This document shows, one piece after another, positions 28,452 through 63,957 of a stretch of DNA of 64,000 nt. How positions within the stretch are numbered: position 1 is the stretch's first letter; the number at the start of each line of letters is the position of its first letter. The DNA is taken from positions 58,119-122,118 of the forward strand of contig JAHFCE010000007.1 of assembly GCA_023249675.1 (NCBI GenBank), read 5' to 3'. The notes under the pieces were generated by a model. It was not told the DNA's origin and did not search any database. It worked only from the letters and a program-made list of their open reading frames with translations. This DNA is from Elusimicrobiota bacterium (GTDB lineage: Bacteria > Elusimicrobiota > Elusimicrobia > UBA1565 > UBA9628). The translations under genes were made by a program, and so were the position numbers.

Positions 28452-29523
28452 CGAGCGCCACGCGTTTCCCTTTCTCACCGCATTCGTCGTGACGGGCGTC
28501 GGACTGTATGCGTTCTACCGCGTGCATGAGGCGCTGACCCCCTTCCTGCTCGCCGCGGCTTTCGCCTACGTCCTCAATCCGGTCGTCAGCTACTTTGAGG
28601 CGAGAGGCCTGCGCCGCTCCCACCTCGTCGTCGCGGGCTACGCCTTAGCCCTGGCGCTGAGCCTTGTGGCGTACGCGGGCCTCAAGTCGATGATCCTCTC
28701 TGAGACCGAGCTGTTCCAGTCGCGCGCGCCGGGATATCTCTCTCAGGTGCAGAAGCTGGTTTATGCCCAACAGGTCCAACTCGCCAAGAAGCTGCCCCTG
28801 CCGCCCAAGATCACCGAGCACGCGCTCGAATCCGCGCTCAGCGGGGCGCTGCACGCACTCCAAGAACTGCCGGCCCACTTTTTCGCCCTGCTGCCGCTGC
28901 TCGCGCACGCCCTGCTCGTCCCCTTCATCGGCTTCTTCTTCCTGCTCGACGCCCCCGACGGTGTTACGGCCGCGATCCAGATCCTGCCAAGCCGCTACGT
29001 CGAGCAGGCGATCCATCTGCTCAGCGAGATCGATAGCGCGCTCGGCAACTACCTGCGCGGCATCCTCATCGTGGCGGCCGCGATCACCTTGATTTCCTTC
29101 GTCAGCCTCGTCATCATGGGCATCGACAACGCGATCGTGATCGCCGTGCTCTCGGGCGCAAGCTCGTTTGTCCCCTATCTCGGCGCGATCGTCGGCGCCC
29201 TCGTCGGCGGCGGCATGGCCTTCTACCAGTTCGGCACGCTGTCGGCCGCGATGAAGGTCGTCGCGCTCTTCGTCGGCATCCGCCTCGCCGACGAGATTTT
29301 CCTGCAGCCCGTGATCGCCAAGCACTCGGTGCACCTGCACCCGATGGTCTTTCTGCTGGCGCTCGTGCTCGGCGGCGAGATGTTCGGCTTCATCGGCCTC
29401 GTGTTCGCGATTCCCGCCGCGTGCATCCTCAAAGCCCTCGTCTCGGTGGCCTGGTCCTGGTACTCGAGCGAGCGCGGCCTCGCCCTCAACCTGGCCGACG
29501 GCGCCGGCGTCCCCTACACCTAA
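28444..29523 (+). CDS. AI-2E/PerM-family membrane transporter
   Basis: 359 residues with the family's eight-helix pattern. An N-terminal pair includes LTPFLLAAAFAYVLNPVVSYFEARGLRR, the hallmark PxxxAxxxAYxxxPxVxxxxxRG-like box. A soluble loop of about 90 residues comes next, then clustered C-terminal helices with PYLGAIVGALVGGG and QPVIAKHSVHLHPMVFLLALVLGG, also typical. Known relatives export autoinducer-2 or act as sodium/proton antiporters; the substrate cannot be inferred. It overlaps the upstream gene by 8 nt and the convergent regulator-thioesterase gene by 4 nt. Confidence 0.93.
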   Translation: MTDERHAFPFLTAFVVTGVGLYAFYRVHEALTPFLLAAAFAYVLNPVVSYFEARGLRRSHLVVAGYALALALSLVAYAGLKSMILSETELFQSRAPGYLSQVQKLVYAQQVQLAKKLPLPPKITEHALESALSGALHALQELPAHFFALLPLLAHALLVPFIGFFFLLDAPDGVTAAIQILPSRYVEQAIHLLSEIDSALGNYLRGILIVAAAITLISFVSLVIMGIDNAIVIAVLSGASSFVPYLGAIVGALVGGGMAFYQFGTLSAAMKVVALFVGIRLADEIFLQPVIAKHSVHLHPMVFLLALVLGGEMFGFIGLVFAIPAACILKALVSVAWSWYSSERGLALNLADGAGVPYT

Positions 29524-30389
29524 GGCTGGACGTAGGGGGCCAGCAGCACGCGCAAGTCAGGAGGAACGCGCGTCGGCCGCCACAGGTCGGTCACGACCGC
29601 ATGGCGCGAGTGCACGCGCGCAACGACCTTGCCGACAAACTCGCTGTCGACCACCTCACATGAAAAGGAGATGCTCGCGCGGCCGAGCTCCGCGATCCAG
29701 GTGCGGATGATCAGCAAGTCGTCGTAGCGGCTTGGAGCGAGGTACTCGCAACGAGCCGACACGGCCGGCAAGAACAACTTGCGCTGAACCTCAAGGTCTC
29801 GGTAGCGCACGCCGAGAGAGCGCAGCAGCTCGGTGCGCCCCTGCTCGAGGTACTTCAGGTAGTTCGCGTAGTAGATGATGCCGGCCTTGTCGGTGTCGGC
29901 GTAGGTCACGCGCACCTGGAACTCGTGAAACTTGGGCTTGCCCGGAGAGCGTTTGACGACGGCGCGCGGCGGCGGCGTGCCCGCGGTGCTCGGCAAGGTC
30001 GCGTTCGTAATCGCCTTTCGGTCCTCGCCCAGCACCTGATTGACCACCGAGAGAACGCCGGAAAAACCCACGGGCTTGCGCAGGAAGAACGTTTTGGCGC
30101 CCGGCTTGATCTTCCCCTTCAGCTCCTCGAGCGTCATGCCCGTCGAGAAGACGACGGGCGTGCCGCTTGTCAGCGGCGAGTCGCGCAGGCGGTCGTACAG
30201 AGCGCCGCCGTCCGCGCCCGGCATGTAGAAGTCGAGAATGATGAGGTCCGGCCTGAGCTCCTGGGCGAGCAGAAGGCCCTGCGCGGAGTCGAAGGCGACG
30301 GCGACGCGGTAGCCGGCCGACTCGAGGCCGTCCTTGAGGGGAGCGACCAAGGTGACGTCGTCGTCAACGACGAGGATCGTGCGCGACAT
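29520..30389 (-). CDS. Response-regulator receiver / acyl-CoA thioesterase (YbgC-like) fusion
   Basis: 289 residues with two complete domains. Residues 1-120 are a CheY-like receiver: acidic DDD at 9-11, phospho-acceptor Asp 53 in ILDFYMPG, Ser/Thr 82-83, and Lys 105 in RKPVG. After a linker of about 30 residues rich in Pro, Thr and Ala, residues 155-285 form a hot-dog thioesterase of the 4HBT/YbgC type: RVTYADTDKAGIIYYANYLKYLEQGR, with the catalytic Asp corresponding to 167. Both active sites look intact, suggesting phosphorylation-controlled hydrolysis of an acyl-CoA or acyl-ACP. No kinase is adjacent. It diverges from the FabA-like gene by 40 nt and has a leaderless -10. The fusion is very unusual to my knowledge. 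Confidence 0.92.
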   Translation of the reverse strand: MSRTILVVDDDVTLVAPLKDGLESAGYRVAVAFDSAQGLLLAQELRPDLIILDFYMPGADGGALYDRLRDSPLTSGTPVVFSTGMTLEELKGKIKPGAKTFFLRKPVGFSGVLSVVNQVLGEDRKAITNATLPSTAGTPPPRAVVKRSPGKPKFHEFQVRVTYADTDKAGIIYYANYLKYLEQGRTELLRSLGVRYRDLEVQRKLFLPAVSARCEYLAPSRYDDLLIIRTWIAELGRASISFSCEVVDSEFVGKVVARVHSRHAVVTDLWRPTRVPPDLRVLLAPYVQP

Positions 30390-30395
30390 GACAGG

Positions 30396-30404
30396 ATGCT
30401 ATCA
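30396..30404 (-). promoter_or_regulatory. Extended -10 (TGATAGCAT), leaderless start of the fusion gene
   Basis: Minus-strand TGA-TAGCAT is followed by CCTGTC (6 nt) and ATG at 30389. Confidence 0.6.
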
Positions 30405-30407
30405 ATG

Positions 30408-30413
30408 TATAAT
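30408..30413 (+). promoter_or_regulatory. TATAAT -10 box of the FabA-like gene
   Basis: A perfect consensus hexamer 16 nt before the ATG at 30430, giving a leader of about 10 nt. It lies 6 bp from the oppositely directed box, so the two promoters overlap and one polymerase should exclude the other. Confidence 0.55.
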
Positions 30414-30429
30414 GCGCAGAGCAACCGCT

Positions 30430-31617
30430 ATGAAATTCGAAGAATTCCGGAATAAAAGCAGCTTCGGGCGCGAGGAGATTCTTTCTTTTGTCGCGGGCCG
30501 CCTTCTCGACGACGCCCCCGCCGGGCTGCCCGCCTTGCCCGGCGCCCTGCTCCTCCCATTTCACGAGATCACCGACATCTCCTGGGACCCGGCCTCCGGG
30601 ACCGGCCGCGTCGAGGCCGTGCGCCATAATCAGCTCGACGACTGGTTTTATGCCTGCCACTTCCCGGGCGACCCCGTGATGCCCGGCTGCTGGGGCGTGG
30701 ACGCCGCCTGGCAGTGCCTGCGCTTCTTCGCCGCCTGGAGGGGTCTCTCCGGCTGCGGCAAGACCATGGGCATGGAGAACGTCTCCTTCTTCGGACAGAT
30801 CCGCCCCTACGACAAAAAAATCGTCTACGCCATCGATGTCATCTCTCAGGAAACCTCCGAGGGCGAAACGCGGATCACCGGCAAGGCCACCGTCACCGTA
30901 GACGGCGCGCTCGTCTACACGATCGGCAGCGTGTCCGTGGCGACCGCCTTATGGATCGACGACGCGCCATCCAAGCGCGAGGCCGTCGCCAGCATTGAGG
31001 ATGCCCCGATCCGCAAGCTCCGCTACGACGAGTTCGCCGCGAAAGCCAAGCTCTCGCACGCCGAGATCATCGCCCTCTCCCAGGGGACGTTGATCGACGC
31101 CCCGGGCCTCGAGGTCGGGCTTCTGCCCTCCTCGCTCATGCTCGAGGTCGGCGCCATCCAGCAACTCGTCTTCGATGAATCGACCGGCGAGGGCCGGATC
31201 GCGGCCTCGCGCGGCAACGGCCCGCTCGAGTGGTTCTATACGATGACGCCGGGCGTCAAGCCGACGGTCCTCTCGATCGACGCCGTGTGGCAGCTGATGG
31301 GCCTTTTTCTCACCTGGCGGCAAAACCCCGGGACCGGCCGCGCGCTCGGCTTTGAGCGCGTCGAGGTGTTCAGCGAGATCCTGCCCGAGGACCGCGACAT
31401 CCGCTACGAGGTCACGATCGTGCGCTACTCGCGCATGGCCAACGGCGACGCCTTCGTGCGCGCCGACGCCACGATCCGCGCAAGCGGCCGCCTGATCCTC
31501 GCCTGCACGAACCTCAACGTCGGCTGCCACAAAAACATCCGCTACTCGGGCTACCCTCTGCCAAGCGAAATGGCCTTGGGCGGCAAGCTCAAGGTCCGCG
31601 GGGACACGGCCCCATGA
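30430..31617 (+). CDS. Tandem FabA-like hot-dog dehydratase (one active, one degenerate domain)
   Basis: 395 residues from ATG 30430; the track start at 30334 lies beyond the promoter. Domain 1 (about 35-175) has WFYACHFPGDPVMPGCWGVDAAWQ, with His 77 and Asp 91 spaced as in E. coli FabA (His 70, Asp 84), then MGMENVSFFGQIRP. Domain 2 (about 215-380) reads WFYTMTPGVKPTVLSIDAVWQ: the histidine is lost but Asp 284 is kept. Since FabA dimers build each site from both subunits, this is an asymmetric fused dimer, recalling the paired DH domains of polyunsaturated-fatty-acid synthases. It probably acts on 3-hydroxyacyl-ACP. It overlaps the next gene by 4 nt. Confidence 0.9.
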   Translation: MKFEEFRNKSSFGREEILSFVAGRLLDDAPAGLPALPGALLLPFHEITDISWDPASGTGRVEAVRHNQLDDWFYACHFPGDPVMPGCWGVDAAWQCLRFFAAWRGLSGCGKTMGMENVSFFGQIRPYDKKIVYAIDVISQETSEGETRITGKATVTVDGALVYTIGSVSVATALWIDDAPSKREAVASIEDAPIRKLRYDEFAAKAKLSHAEIIALSQGTLIDAPGLEVGLLPSSLMLEVGAIQQLVFDESTGEGRIAASRGNGPLEWFYTMTPGVKPTVLSIDAVWQLMGLFLTWRQNPGTGRALGFERVEVFSEILPEDRDIRYEVTIVRYSRMANGDAFVRADATIRASGRLILACTNLNVGCHKNIRYSGYPLPSEMALGGKLKVRGDTAP

Positions 31618-32105
31618 GCGTGCTCACCCCCGAGCAGGTCCTTGCCCTTATCCCGCAGCAGCGCCCGATGCGCTTTCTCGATGAGATCGTCGAGATGGAC
31701 GCCGAGCACATCGTCGGCCGCTACACCTGGAAACCCGAGGATTGCGCCGGCTATTGCGCCGACGACACGTTGGTCCCCCCCTTCAAGATGATCGAGATGG
31801 CGGCGCAAATCGGCAGCGTGGCATGGTGCATCTATCACATGACGCTCAAGATGACCCCTGAGGAGATCGCCCAACTGGTCGGCTTCTTCACGCAGGTCGA
31901 AAACGTCGAGTTCTTCAAGACCGTACGCGCGGGCGACACCATCGCCTGCCTGGCGAGCTTCGAGCCCGAGGGCTACTTCCGCGAGGGCAAGCTCCTCAGC
32001 TGCGTCGAGTCCCAGTTCGACGGAGGCCCGAAGGACGGCACGACCATCATGACCGGCCTCGTCGGCGGTATGTGGGTGCCGAAGAACTCCCCAACGCTCG
32101 TCTAA
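31614..32105 (+). CDS. FabZ-like hot-dog protein with missing catalytic histidine
   Basis: 163 residues. The opening PEQVLALIPQQRPMRFLDEIVEMD matches the FabZ N-terminus (LLPHRxPFLLVDRV). The active-site stretch is DCAGYCADDTLVPPFKMIEMAAQ: where FabZ has GHFPxxPVxPG, this has GYC, so the catalytic His is replaced while the Glu of the IExxAQ box is kept. It may be a binding or structural partner of the tandem FabA-like protein, possibly completing a site. The ATGA overlap implies coupled translation. No ketosynthase or acyl carrier protein is adjacent. Confidence 0.85.
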   Translation: MSVLTPEQVLALIPQQRPMRFLDEIVEMDAEHIVGRYTWKPEDCAGYCADDTLVPPFKMIEMAAQIGSVAWCIYHMTLKMTPEEIAQLVGFFTQVENVEFFKTVRAGDTIACLASFEPEGYFREGKLLSCVESQFDGGPKDGTTIMTGLVGGMWVPKNSPTLV

Positions 32106-59811: not shown

Positions 59812-61647
59812 CTAGGCGCGGTCCGCGAAACGGTCCGCCAAGCGCACCCAGGATCGTCTCGCCCCCTCGGCGGCCCCGCGCTCGCGCACCTCGGAAAAAC
59901 TCCCGCGCAGCAGCCTCACGATGCCGGGGCCGCGCTCCACGCACCGAAACGATTCCAGCCCACGCGCAACGCCGATCTCGGCCAGCGCTCGCACCAAAGC
60001 GCTTCCCACGCCCCGGCGCTGGAAATCATCCCGCACCGCGACGCTCAGTTCGGCCTCGCTCTCGCCCGTCCGCGCGTGATAGCGCGCCACGCCCACCAGG
60101 AGGCGCCGCCGTCCCTCGCGCAGAAAGGCCCCGAGCGCCATCGAGGTGCGAAAGTCGATGGCCACGAGCTCCTGGAACTGCGCCTCCGAGAGGCGCGACA
60201 GCGGCGTGCCGAAGCGCAAAGCGCTCGTCTCCTGCGACTGCGCGTAGAAAAGCTCCTTCAAGGGGCGCTCATCGGCAGGTCCCAAAGGCCGCAGCAGCAA
60301 GTCGAGCTCGCCGACCCGGCGGCGCGACTGCAGCTCGATGGGATAAGCGCCGTTCGGCGGAGGCAGAATGTGTCCCGCGTCGAGCAGGCCCGCCTTGGCC
60401 GCCTCACCCGCAAGCGCCACGCGAAAGCGCGGGTGCGCGATCTGGATCAGGGCCACGGCGCGCTGACGGATCGTCTTGGCCTTGAGGCTGGCGATGCCGT
60501 ACTCGGTGACCACATAGTCGATGTCGGCGCGCGTCGTGACCACGCCGGTGCCCGGAGACAGCGCGCAGGCGATCCGGGAGACCGTCCCCTTCTTGGCGGT
60601 GGACGGCAGAACGATGATGGATTTCCCACCGCGCGAGGCCGTCGCGCCCCGCACGAAATCCACCTGGCCGCCGACGCCGCTGTACAGCCTCCCGCCGATC
60701 GAGTCGGCGGCGACCTGGCCGGTCAGGTCCACGAGCAAAGCCGAGTTGATCGAGACCATCCGCTCATTGCTCGCGATGACGGCGGGATCGTTGACGTAGT
60801 CGCTCGGGTGAAACAGGAACTGGGGATTGCCGTCGACGGCAGCGTAGAGGCGCCGGCTGCCCATGCAGAAGGAGGTCACGACACGGCCGGGGTGAAGGCT
60901 CTTCGCTCTGCCTGTGACGACCCCAGCGTTCAAGAGGTCGAGCACGCCATCGGAAATCATCTCCGAGTGGACGCCGAGGTCCTTCTTGCCGGAGAGCGCT
61001 GCGAGCACGGCATCGGGCACCGCGCCGATGCCGACCTGGATGGTCGAGTCGTCCTCAATAAGCTCGCGCACATAGCGCCCGATCCACAGCGCCTCGGCCG
61101 TGGCCTCGCGCGCCGGCAGCTCGAGAATCGGGCCGCCGCCCGCGACGAACGCGTCGATGTCCGTGACAGGAACCGTCGAGTCGCCCTCCGTCCAGGGCAT
61201 ATTCGGATTGATCAGAGCCACGACATAAGCCGCCGACTCGACCGCGGCCTTGACCACGTCCACCGAAACGCCCAGAGAGCACACGCCCCCGCGGGCGGGT
61301 GTGGCCTGCACGAGTGCGACGTCGAGCGGCAGGTGCCCGGAACGGAACAGCCCGGGCACCTCATGGAGGAAACACGGGGTGTAGTCCGCCAACCCGGCGC
61401 CGACCGCCTCGCGGGTATTGGCTCCGATGAACAGCGCGTTGTGCCGCACGTGCCCGCGGAAGGACGGCGCCGCGTAGGGCGCCTGCGCGAGCGTCATCAG
61501 GTGCAGGACTTCGACATCGGAGAGGTCCGCGGCCCGCGCGGCGAGTGCCACGACCAACTCCTGCGGGGCGGCGGCCCCAGACCCCACGAGCACGCGCTGA
61601 CCGCTGCGAAGCGGCGCCAAAGCCTGTGCCGCGGAGACCTTCTTCAT
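59812..61647 (-). CDS. Acetyl-CoA hydrolase/CoA-transferase fused to a GNAT acetyltransferase
   Basis: 611 residues. Residues 1-430 are an acetyl-CoA hydrolase/4-hydroxybutyrate CoA-transferase: [68 protein letters not shown] and [13 protein letters not shown], the last resembling the C-terminal family signature. Residues 450-600 form a GNAT domain with [20 protein letters not shown], the acetyl-CoA pyrophosphate loop. The fusion could modify itself or sense acetyl-CoA. Acetoacetate from the liu pathway is a plausible CoA acceptor. A TATAGG-like -10 lies only 4 nt from the ATG, so the promoter is uncertain. Confidence 0.9.
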
Positions 61648-61677
61648 GACACCTATACGAGCAACAAAACGGCCAAC

Positions 61678-62760
61678 CTAGCGGCGCCGAGTCGCTTTGA
61701 GCTCGTGGCGCACGGCGTTGACCGTGCGGCGGGAGACGGAAATGCCGCGCTCCGCCTTCAGCCGCTCCACGAGGACGGCATCGGTGACAGCCACGCTCAC
61801 GGCAAGCCACTGCCCGAGCAGCTCGCGCAGAACGCTCCGTCGTCCGGGCACGAAAGCGATCAGAGGCAGCTCCCGTCCGGAAGGCAGGCGCACGGAGCGC
61901 TGCGCGAAGGCGCGGCTGACCGTGCTCGGCGCCAGGTCGAGGCGCTTGGCCAATTGACGCAGGCTGATCGGGCGGACGTCCTCGGGACGAGCGCTCTTCA
62001 GGTAGTCGACCTGCAGGCGCGCGACCATCTCGAGCAGACGGAACAAGGTGCTCTGGCGGAGGTTCACGGTCTCGAGGCGCTTGAGCATGGCGGGCAGATG
62101 CTTGCGCTCCTGCGCCGTCAGCCCCCCGTCCTTCCAGCGGTCGAGGAGGTCATGACGGACCTGGTAGAGGCCGCGCGCCCAATACGGCGCGTAGAACTCG
62201 AAAGTCGGCGAGCCGCTCTCCAGGGAAATTTGGGCGAGGCAGGCCGCCTGGCGAGAGGGCGCGGCCGCCGGCGCCGACACCTTGCCCTCGAACTCGGCGC
62301 GCGCTCCCAGCTCGACGACGAGTTCGTGAATCCGACGCACCTCCTCGGCCGCAAGGCCGGTGCGGCGGCCGATCTCTTCGAGAGTGAGCGCGTCCTCGCC
62401 ATGCAGAAAGTAGCGCTCGAAGTCCTTCTGCCCCATGCGCTTGATCGCGGCCAACGCGGGACCGCGCGCCTCGGCGAACTCTTCGACGCCGACGCGTTCC
62501 CCGGCGCCGGCCGCGGTCCGTTCGTCGATCTCGTAGAACGAGCCCGAGAGCTTGCCTCCCGGCCAGCGCTGGCGGCGAAGCGCGCCGGGAATGCGTCCGT
62601 CGCCGAAGTAAAGTTTCTGGAAAAGAGGATCTTTCTCGAGCTTTTCGACCTCACGCGCGAACTCGCGTTCGGGCATCTCGATCCAGTCGGCCATGCGCAT
62701 ACGTCCCATCACGGTCAGACGTTGGCTGGTGGCGAGAACAAGCTTCTGGGTCTGCTTCAT
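61678..62760 (-). CDS. rpoN: Short, divergent RNA polymerase sigma-54 factor
   Basis: 360 residues against about 480 in E. coli. The N-terminus (KLVLATSQRLTVMGRMRMADWIEMPEREFAREVEKL) matches region I in layout but is poor in Gln. A shortened acidic region follows. The core-binding part has LTLEEIGRRTGLAAEEVRRIHELV. The DNA-binding region has ISLRQLAKRLDLAPSTVSRAF, the family's helix-turn-helix with PSTVSRA. The RpoN box is degenerate: SVSRRTVNAVRHELK instead of ARRTVAKYREE. AAGGA lies 8 nt before the ATG, and a near-consensus sigma-54 promoter lies upstream. It is next to an NtrB/NtrC-like pair. Confidence 0.87.
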   Translation of the reverse strand: MKQTQKLVLATSQRLTVMGRMRMADWIEMPEREFAREVEKLEKDPLFQKLYFGDGRIPGALRRQRWPGGKLSGSFYEIDERTAAGAGERVGVEEFAEARGPALAAIKRMGQKDFERYFLHGEDALTLEEIGRRTGLAAEEVRRIHELVVELGARAEFEGKVSAPAAAPSRQAACLAQISLESGSPTFEFYAPYWARGLYQVRHDLLDRWKDGGLTAQERKHLPAMLKRLETVNLRQSTLFRLLEMVARLQVDYLKSARPEDVRPISLRQLAKRLDLAPSTVSRAFAQRSVRLPSGRELPLIAFVPGRRSVLRELLGQWLAVSVAVTDAVLVERLKAERGISVSRRTVNAVRHELKATRRR

Positions 62761-62799
62761 GATTTTGGTCCTTGGCCGTTATGTTCCGACGGACATCGT

Positions 62800-62816
62800 A
62801 GCAATATTCCGGCCAA
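62800..62816 (-). promoter_or_regulatory. Near-consensus sigma-54 promoter of rpoN
   Basis: Minus strand TTGGCCGG-AATA-TTGCT against YTGGCACG-N4-TTGCW: both invariant GG and GC are present at the right distance. Transcription would start near 62789, about 28 nt before the ATG. It implies autoregulation. TGCTACGAT overlaps and could serve as a housekeeping extended -10. Confidence 0.6.
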
Positions 62817-62823
62817 ACCGTTT

Positions 62824-62839
62824 TTGAGCCAAATTTGCT
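62824..62839 (+). promoter_or_regulatory. Weaker sigma-54-like promoter of the kinase gene
   Basis: TTGAGCC-AAAT-TTGCT keeps the -12 TTGCT and one of the two -24 Gs. It mirrors the minus-strand promoter: GTAGCAA and TTGCTAC form an inverted pair 30 bp apart. Confidence 0.35.
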
Positions 62840-62883
62840 ACAAAATGGAACACTTCTCTAAGCCTCGGATAAAAGTCTCGATC

Positions 62884-63957
62884 ATGCCCCCCACGGACCT
62901 CCAACTCATGACCGTCCTGTTGACGGGCTTTCGCCGCTCCAACGACGTGATGTTCTACAGCGACCCCAACGGCGTGATCTTGGACATCAACGACGCCTTC
63001 ACCACCCACTACGGCTACACGCGCGAGGAGGCGCTCGGACACACGCCGGCCCTGCTGCGCTCGCGGCACTCGACCGACGAACTCTACAAGCGCATGTGGC
63101 GCAGCATCCTCGACCCCAAGAAGGGCTACTGGCGCGGCGAGCTCATCAACAAAGCCAAGGACGGGCGAGAAGTGCCCCTCATCCTCACCATCACCGCCGT
63201 GCGCGACGATAAGAACGAGATCCTCGGCTACGTCTCCAACGGCATCGACCTCAGCGAGCAGAAGGCCCTGGAGGAGCGGGTGGCGCATGCCGAAGCGCTC
63301 GCCACCATCGGCGAAATGGCGGCCGTCGTCGCCCACGAAATCCGCAATCCCCTCGGCTCGATCGTCATGGCCGCCCAGCAGCTGGCCGATGAAGGCTTGT
63401 CGCGCGAGGACAAGGACACCGTCACCCGCGTCCTGCGCACCGAGAGCAAGCGCCTCAACGAAGCCCTCAGCAACTTCCTCTCCTACGCGCGTCCGCGCCC
63501 CTTGAACCGCGGAGACAACGATCTCAACGCCCTCCTCAAGGAAATCTCGGAGATGGCGTTCGTCAACGATGAGCTCACCGGCGGCGCGCGCTTGTCGCTG
63601 TCCTTCGACGGCAGCCTTGAAAGCTTCCCTTTCGACGCGGATCATATCCGCCAGGTGGTCTGGAATATCCTGCTCAACGCGATCCAGATCCTCGGCGGCA
63701 AGGGAACGGTGACGGTGCGCTCGGGCAAAGGCGACGGCGCGGCCTGGTTTTCGATCTCCGACACCGGCCCCGGCATCCCGGAGTCCATACGCGCCGACCT
63801 GTTCAAGCCATTCCGCACCACCAAGCAGCAGGGCACGGGCCTGGGCCTAGCCATCGCCGAGCGCATCGTCAAGGCGCACGGAGGCCGCGTCGACGTCGAG
63901 ACCCGACTCGGGCACGGAACCACCTTCACCGTCGTTTTGCCGCGCATCGAGGGCTGA
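62884..63957 (+). CDS. NtrB-like PAS sensor histidine kinase, soluble
   Basis: 357 residues from ATG 62884 (ATG 62845 is possible); the 1293-residue track ORF is a shadow over the minus-strand genes. A PAS domain (about 15-130: DVMFYSDPNGVILDINDAFTTHYGYTREEALG) is followed by HisKA with VVAHEIRNPLGSI (phospho-His in HEIRNP). The HATPase then has N-box VWNILLNAIQI, G1 SDTGPGIP, and G2 GTGLGLAIAERI. There is no transmembrane helix, so it senses a cytoplasmic signal. It is followed by its response regulator 1 nt after the stop. The rpoN divergence suggests control of sigma-54 genes. Confidence 0.93.
   Translation: MPPTDLQLMTVLLTGFRRSNDVMFYSDPNGVILDINDAFTTHYGYTREEALGHTPALLRSRHSTDELYKRMWRSILDPKKGYWRGELINKAKDGREVPLILTITAVRDDKNEILGYVSNGIDLSEQKALEERVAHAEALATIGEMAAVVAHEIRNPLGSIVMAAQQLADEGLSREDKDTVTRVLRTESKRLNEALSNFLSYARPRPLNRGDNDLNALLKEISEMAFVNDELTGGARLSLSFDGSLESFPFDADHIRQVVWNILLNAIQILGGKGTVTVRSGKGDGAAWFSISDTGPGIPESIRADLFKPFRTTKQQGTGLGLAIAERIVKAHGGRVDVETRLGHGTTFTVVLPRIEG

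Follow-up and report, generated by a model that had tools for sequence, protein, structure and literature searches.

A CheY-like receiver fused to a YbgC-type thioesterase in Elusimicrobiota, a candidate response regulator with an acyl-thioester hydrolase as output

Introduction

Can an acyl thioesterase be placed under two-component control within a single polypeptide? The question is raised by one gene in a 64,000-nucleotide stretch of DNA (the window) from a 2.6-Mb Elusimicrobiota assembly. From the letters of this stretch, it had been predicted that a complete CheY-like receiver is joined to a complete YbgC/4HBT-type hot-dog thioesterase, an architecture not known as established. Response regulators with enzymatic outputs are exemplified by the GGDEF proteins PleD and WspR, the HD-GYP protein RpfG and the methylesterase CheB. 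To our knowledge, the enzymatic outputs of response regulators comprise second-messenger synthesis and breakdown, chemoreceptor modification, kinases and phosphatases. We therefore asked whether the fused protein is real, how it is distributed and constrained, and which explanation of its architecture the evidence favours.

Results

One reading frame encodes a receiver and a hot-dog thioesterase

The gene and its functional elements were located in the window as follows.

29520..30389, minus strand: whole receiver-thioesterase gene (289 aa; ATG start, stop codon at 29520-29522; single open reading frame)
30024..30383, minus strand: CheY-like receiver domain, residues 3-122 (Pfam Response_reg, AlphaFold)
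30231..30233, minus strand: Asp53 codon, predicted phosphoacceptor (D in 29/29 fused sequences)
30141..30143, minus strand: Thr83 codon, Thr/Ser switch residue (T in 25 and S in 4 of 29)
30075..30077, minus strand: Lys105 codon, conserved receiver Lys (29/29)
29934..30023, minus strand: variable Pro/Ala-rich linker, residues 123-152 (omega 0.57; conservation 0.41)
29532..29933, minus strand: YbgC/FadM-family hot-dog thioesterase domain, residues 153-286 (TIGR00051, Pfam 4HBT and 4HBT_2, PDB 5v10)
29889..29891, minus strand: Asp167 codon, predicted catalytic Asp in a DTD motif (D in 28/29, E in one)

The interval originally assigned to the gene, 29520-30389, proved exact at both ends, with the correction that the protein is read from the minus strand and that the plus-strand interval does not encode it. 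The N-terminal half matched Pfam Response_reg (PF00072) over residues 5-110 (E 2.1e-16; 60.5 bits against a curated cut-off of 30.2) and carries D9/D10, D53, T83, K105 and, at the aromatic switch position, F102. The C-terminal half exceeded the curated cut-offs of both Pfam 4HBT (residues 170-249, E 6.6e-14) and Pfam 4HBT_2 (residues 161-280, E 2.3e-12), and its NCBIfam score against the YbgC/FadM acyl-CoA thioesterases (TIGR00051) was 86.4 bits versus a cut-off of 68.7. Assignment to the tol-pal YbgC equivalog of NCBIfam (TIGR02799) was rejected, as a score of 92.7 did not reach the cut-off of 141.35. Thioesterases in the PDB aligned over residues 149-283, the best of them being 5v10 (E 5e-19). 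The original description of a complete receiver with Asp53 and Lys105, followed by a complete thioesterase with Asp167, was thus borne out for both halves. In the AlphaFold model, pLDDT per block was mostly 88-98 over residues 1-120 (76 at residues 91-100) and below 50 in the thioesterase half, which was modelled unreliably because few relatives (two) covered that half in the alignment; since the model is confident for the receiver alone, domain contacts are not readable from it.

Experimentally, YbgC enzymes are acyl-CoA/ACP thioesterases that require the Asp equivalent to Asp167 (PMC5479800, PMC12794305, PMC516016). The equivalent residues are Asp15 in S. oneidensis YbgC (PMC5479800) and Asp17 in 4HBT (PMC516016); the Shewanella enzyme hydrolyses short-chain acyl-CoA in a manner that depends on this Asp (PMC5479800), and the Sinorhizobium YbgC is an acyl-ACP/CoA thioesterase that prefers C14 (PMC12794305). 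The window protein shares the catalytic Asp, the DTD..G motif and the hot-dog length with the YbgC/FadM enzymes (TIGR00051), among them the YbgC proteins of E. coli, H. influenzae and S. oneidensis, but differs from them in its N-terminal receiver and in scoring below the tol-pal equivalog cut-off. In most fused members, Tyr replaces His at Asp+7, as in the 4HBT of Pseudomonas CBS-3.

The fusion is shared by three families of a single order

The original prediction had named, as one possible refutation, a sequencing frameshift that merges two genes; we considered errors of assembly as well. Using the thioesterase half as query against 341 genomes of the phylum, supplemented by full-length searches, we recovered an intact, stop-free fused frame in 31 genomes, all of a single Elusimicrobiota order and spread over three of its families (f1, f2 and f3). 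Two further probable fusions are broken, one by a contig end (G037) and the other by a run of N (G024). Such an artefact, to which we assign practically no credence, is ruled out by the same continuous frame recurring in 31 genomes and by purifying selection on both halves, with the linker between them under weak constraint. The fusion is real and inherited across the three families. The nearest named relative, Elusimicrobiota bacterium isolate C5_metabat.bin.68, is 83% identical. In the rest of the phylum, this thioesterase occurs unfused, as a protein of about 140 aa, judging by frame length at the loci fetched. Fused sequences clustered on the thioesterase tree (5 changes versus a mean of 14 with shuffled labels), a tree that is weakly supported near its base and on which G037 was scored as free despite being a truncated fusion; the simplest reading of the history is one gain and a few losses.

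Both domains are under equal constraint

Within the genus, dN/dS across 28 pairs was almost identical in the receiver (0.138) and the thioesterase (0.139) and higher in the linker (0.57); the two domains are under equal, strong purifying selection, and the linker is relaxed. All 29 fused sequences retain D53, F102, K105-P106 and Thr or Ser at position 83, and D9-D11 are invariant in the 28 that have letters at those positions. Such a pattern makes it very improbable that a constitutive YbgC enzyme simply carries a receiver that no longer signals. This relaxed hitch-hiking would accommodate the occasional loss of the receiver described below, but not a receiver whose omega of 0.138 equals that of the enzyme and whose phospho-site residues do not vary across three families.

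Helix alpha1 is the kinase-recognition helix of receivers. In the fused proteins, it was the most family-specifically conserved receiver element, with an entropy of 1.01 versus 3.07 bits in unrelated receivers, a difference partly owed to the relatedness of the fused sequences. The conservation of this helix, taken with its role in recognising kinases, therefore points to one conserved phosphodonor.

Thioesterase and receiver genes are also paired without fusion

Outside the fused families, the two functions recur side by side as separate genes.

L192, L193, L194/L222, L207 and L208, same strand: YbgC-then-receiver gene pairs (four Elusimicrobiota families)

At these loci (genomes G245, G323, G324, G325 and G327; families f20, f22, f23 and f25), a stand-alone receiver gene comes directly after a free YbgC gene in the same orientation, the two overlapping or lying no more than 5 bp apart. 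The pairs resemble the fusion in combining the same two functions in overlapping or nearly overlapping genes, but unlike the fusion they are unfused, with the enzyme first and a CheY-like receiver of another lineage by best hits. The paired receivers form a group of their own by the same measure, with no close tie to the fused receivers, and we rejected orthology between the two because best hits do not support it. Just upstream of the pair in G325 and G327 (L192 and L193) lie an aldolase gene and an accA-type gene; in G325, Pfam confirmed these as a fructose-bisphosphate aldolase and an acetyl-CoA carboxylase subunit. Furthermore, in four fused genomes that together represent all three families (G020; G040 and G045; G041), a CheY-like gene abuts the fusion upstream, overlapping it or nearly so. 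The gene pairs in distant families, together with these abutting CheY-like genes, thus indicate that receivers and thioesterase became associated more than once in the phylum.

Two other arrangements were observed at the loci surveyed. Family f21 (L187-L191) has a free YbgC gene paired with a cytidine/adenosine-deaminase-like gene, and at L127:11716-13533 a protein with guanylate-cyclase-like and HD_5 domains adjoins a double-receiver gene and is divergent from the receiver-thioesterase operon.

Receiver loss and enzyme decay in individual lineages

Some lineages retain only one of the two parts intact. In G018 (L133:9547-10050), which belongs to the same genus, the receiver has been cleanly excised in frame, so that MPRPILVVDDD runs straight into RRYHEFQVRVSYADTD of the enzyme, and the excision sits at the orthologous locus of the fusion. 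The receiver is also absent at this locus in G232, and three genomes of genus g9 carry a stand-alone copy of the enzyme at a different locus. These receiver-less cases show that the enzyme can persist without the receiver.

Such persistence is consistent with a docking or scaffold role, in which a thioesterase that is always active is carried by its receiver to a signalling partner or cell site (a kinase array or the pole, for example) and phosphorylation sets location or partner, not turnover. The long, variable Pro/Ala-rich linker, which in family f2 reaches up to about 110 residues, adds to this case, as it argues against rigid allosteric coupling. Docking leaves unexplained why the thioesterase is separately paired with an unfused receiver gene from a different lineage, although that pairing might also serve as a location signal; we regard docking as unlikely, while giving it some weight.

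The converse exception was found in genus g17 (G040, L127:9303-10247; G045, L120:9150-10013), in which the receiver is intact and the motif of the fused enzyme is degraded. Both genomes carry the changes Tyr163 to Pro and Tyr173 to Arg, G040 additionally has D167E, and both possess another YbgC-like thioesterase elsewhere. A shift of the g17 thioesterase from enzyme to ligand-binding domain is possible. For the fused proteins in general, control could run in the reverse direction, with the hot-dog domain mainly sensing acyl-CoA or acyl-ACP and the bound ligand tuning the receiver as a phosphate sink or kinase regulator. A precedent exists in FapR, whose hot-dog ligand domain senses malonyl-CoA without catalysis (PMC516016), and the g17 proteins, which keep the receiver alongside a decayed hot-dog motif and a second thioesterase in the genome, fit this arrangement. 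It is nevertheless rather improbable for the group as a whole, given that the catalytic Asp is kept in 28/29 fused sequences, that enzyme and receiver are constrained alike, and that the genome holds no close YbgC relative besides the window protein. The three receiver-less lineages and the decay of the g17 enzyme mean, therefore, that coupling between receiver and enzyme is not indispensable everywhere.

Genomic neighbourhood and candidate kinases

The receiver-thioesterase gene stands alone on its strand, with the following genes and intervals mapped around it.

30390..30429, no strand: gap to the divergent FabA-FabA gene (40 bp; arrangement in part of the genus only)
30430-31617, plus strand: tandem FabA-FabA protein (first FabA domain keeps the CHFPGDPVMPG motif)
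31614-32105, plus strand: FabZ-like protein, next after FabA-FabA
60076-63957, plus strand: large PAS/HisKA/HATPase histidine kinase (sole HisKA match found in the window, 30 kb away)

Downstream lie convergent genes for an AI-2E family permease, a cNMP-binding protein and a small membrane protein, a synteny kept in most fused genomes, although these genes are not co-transcribed with the receiver-thioesterase gene. On the other side, the divergent gap of 40 bp means that any promoter of the receiver-thioesterase gene must lie in the gap or within the FabA-FabA gene. By eye, the catalytic His is missing from the second FabA domain and from the FabZ-like protein, beyond which a large protein resembles a pyruvate:ferredoxin oxidoreductase (a putative reading from sequence). 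The FabA-FabA and FabZ-like genes are kept in about 8 genomes of the genus, and we dropped a functional link to them, since they, like the gene for the large protein, are confined to part of it.

No kinase gene adjoins the receiver-thioesterase gene in the window, and an operon with a kinase was accordingly rejected. In its own genome, at least 15 HisKA matches exceed the cut-off and are potential phosphate donors; other 4HBT proteins are present too, but no other close YbgC relative. No Tol or Pal proteins were recognised among the annotated neighbours.

The architecture beyond the phylum

The fusion was absent among the matches listed from 384 Omnitrophota, 395 Desulfobacterota and 297 Acidobacteriota genomes, these phylum names being taken from the titles of the seed loci, and none of 36 thioesterase matches from other phyla, nearly all picked for their long open frames, carries a receiver. 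Likewise, two more phyla, sampled by 237 and 246 genomes, yielded no match to a full-length profile at E 1e-42, bringing the sample, which is not a census, to about 1,560 genomes from five phyla. No plasmid record covers 80% of the query, and no such protein is described in the titles and abstracts of the literature found on response regulators and 4HBT thioesterases. Similarly, the text of the hot-dog survey of Dillon and Bateman 2004 mentions no receiver-hot-dog protein (PMC516016). Within these sampled genomes, plasmids and publications, the original view of the architecture as not established therefore holds.

Discussion

We consider it probable, reading from sequence, that the window protein is a single-polypeptide response regulator with an enzyme as output, in which phosphorylation of Asp53 would alter acyl-thioester hydrolysis. 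Phospho-control is the explanation that we infer as the best, because the phospho-site residues are invariant, the two domains are equally constrained and a second association between thioesterase and receiver exists. A histidine kinase or phosphorelay protein encoded elsewhere in the genome would phosphorylate Asp53, upon which the Thr83/Phe102 switch would alter the signalling face of the receiver. This change may reach the YbgC-type thioesterase, presumably acting as an oligomer, as hot-dog enzymes do, by way of the flexible linker or by bypassing it, and would alter the hydrolysis, at Asp167, of an acyl-CoA or acyl-ACP of short or medium chain length. The outcome would be fast post-translational control of the acyl-thioester pools supplying the synthesis of fatty acids and envelope lipids. 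In this scheme, we infer the phosphorylation of Asp53 and its effect on thioesterase activity, and likewise the kinase, the substrate and the direction in which activity would shift. Because the protein is small and its two domain types are normally soluble, the hypothesis is accessible to a standard DTNB assay.

Like PleD, WspR, RpfG and CheB, the window protein combines an N-terminal receiver with a canonical phospho-site and a C-terminal enzyme in one chain; unlike theirs, its predicted output acts not on a second messenger or chemoreceptor but on acyl thioesters, which places it in primary lipid metabolism. Hot-dog domains joined to regulatory modules are also represented by the CBS-hotdog protein BH3175 and by FapR (Dillon and Bateman 2004, PMC516016). 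That survey comes nearest to such a combination with ComA2 of B. subtilis, a 4HBT class II protein that is separate from the response regulator ComA but co-transcribed with it (PMC516016). Collectively, the fused proteins form a real and apparently undescribed class of response regulator with enzymatic output, in which the new element is the enzyme. The broader proposition is that two-component phosphorylation directly sets the rate of an acyl thioesterase, giving a phosphorelay transcription-independent control over acyl-CoA/ACP pools, and that the association arose at least twice in Elusimicrobiota, as a fusion and as a gene pair; for this proposition as a whole, we judge the chances to be evenly balanced.

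For the order of little-known Elusimicrobiota that carries the fusion, acyl-thioester hydrolysis can probably be turned up or down on a signal without making new protein. If phosphorylation gates the enzyme, two-component systems would have a route for adjusting the chemistry of fatty acids or envelope lipids in a matter of seconds. The YbgC family is poorly understood, and its purpose is a long-standing question. If the proposal is true, the family would gain a natural regulated member, and the signal to which that member responds could reveal the function of YbgC.
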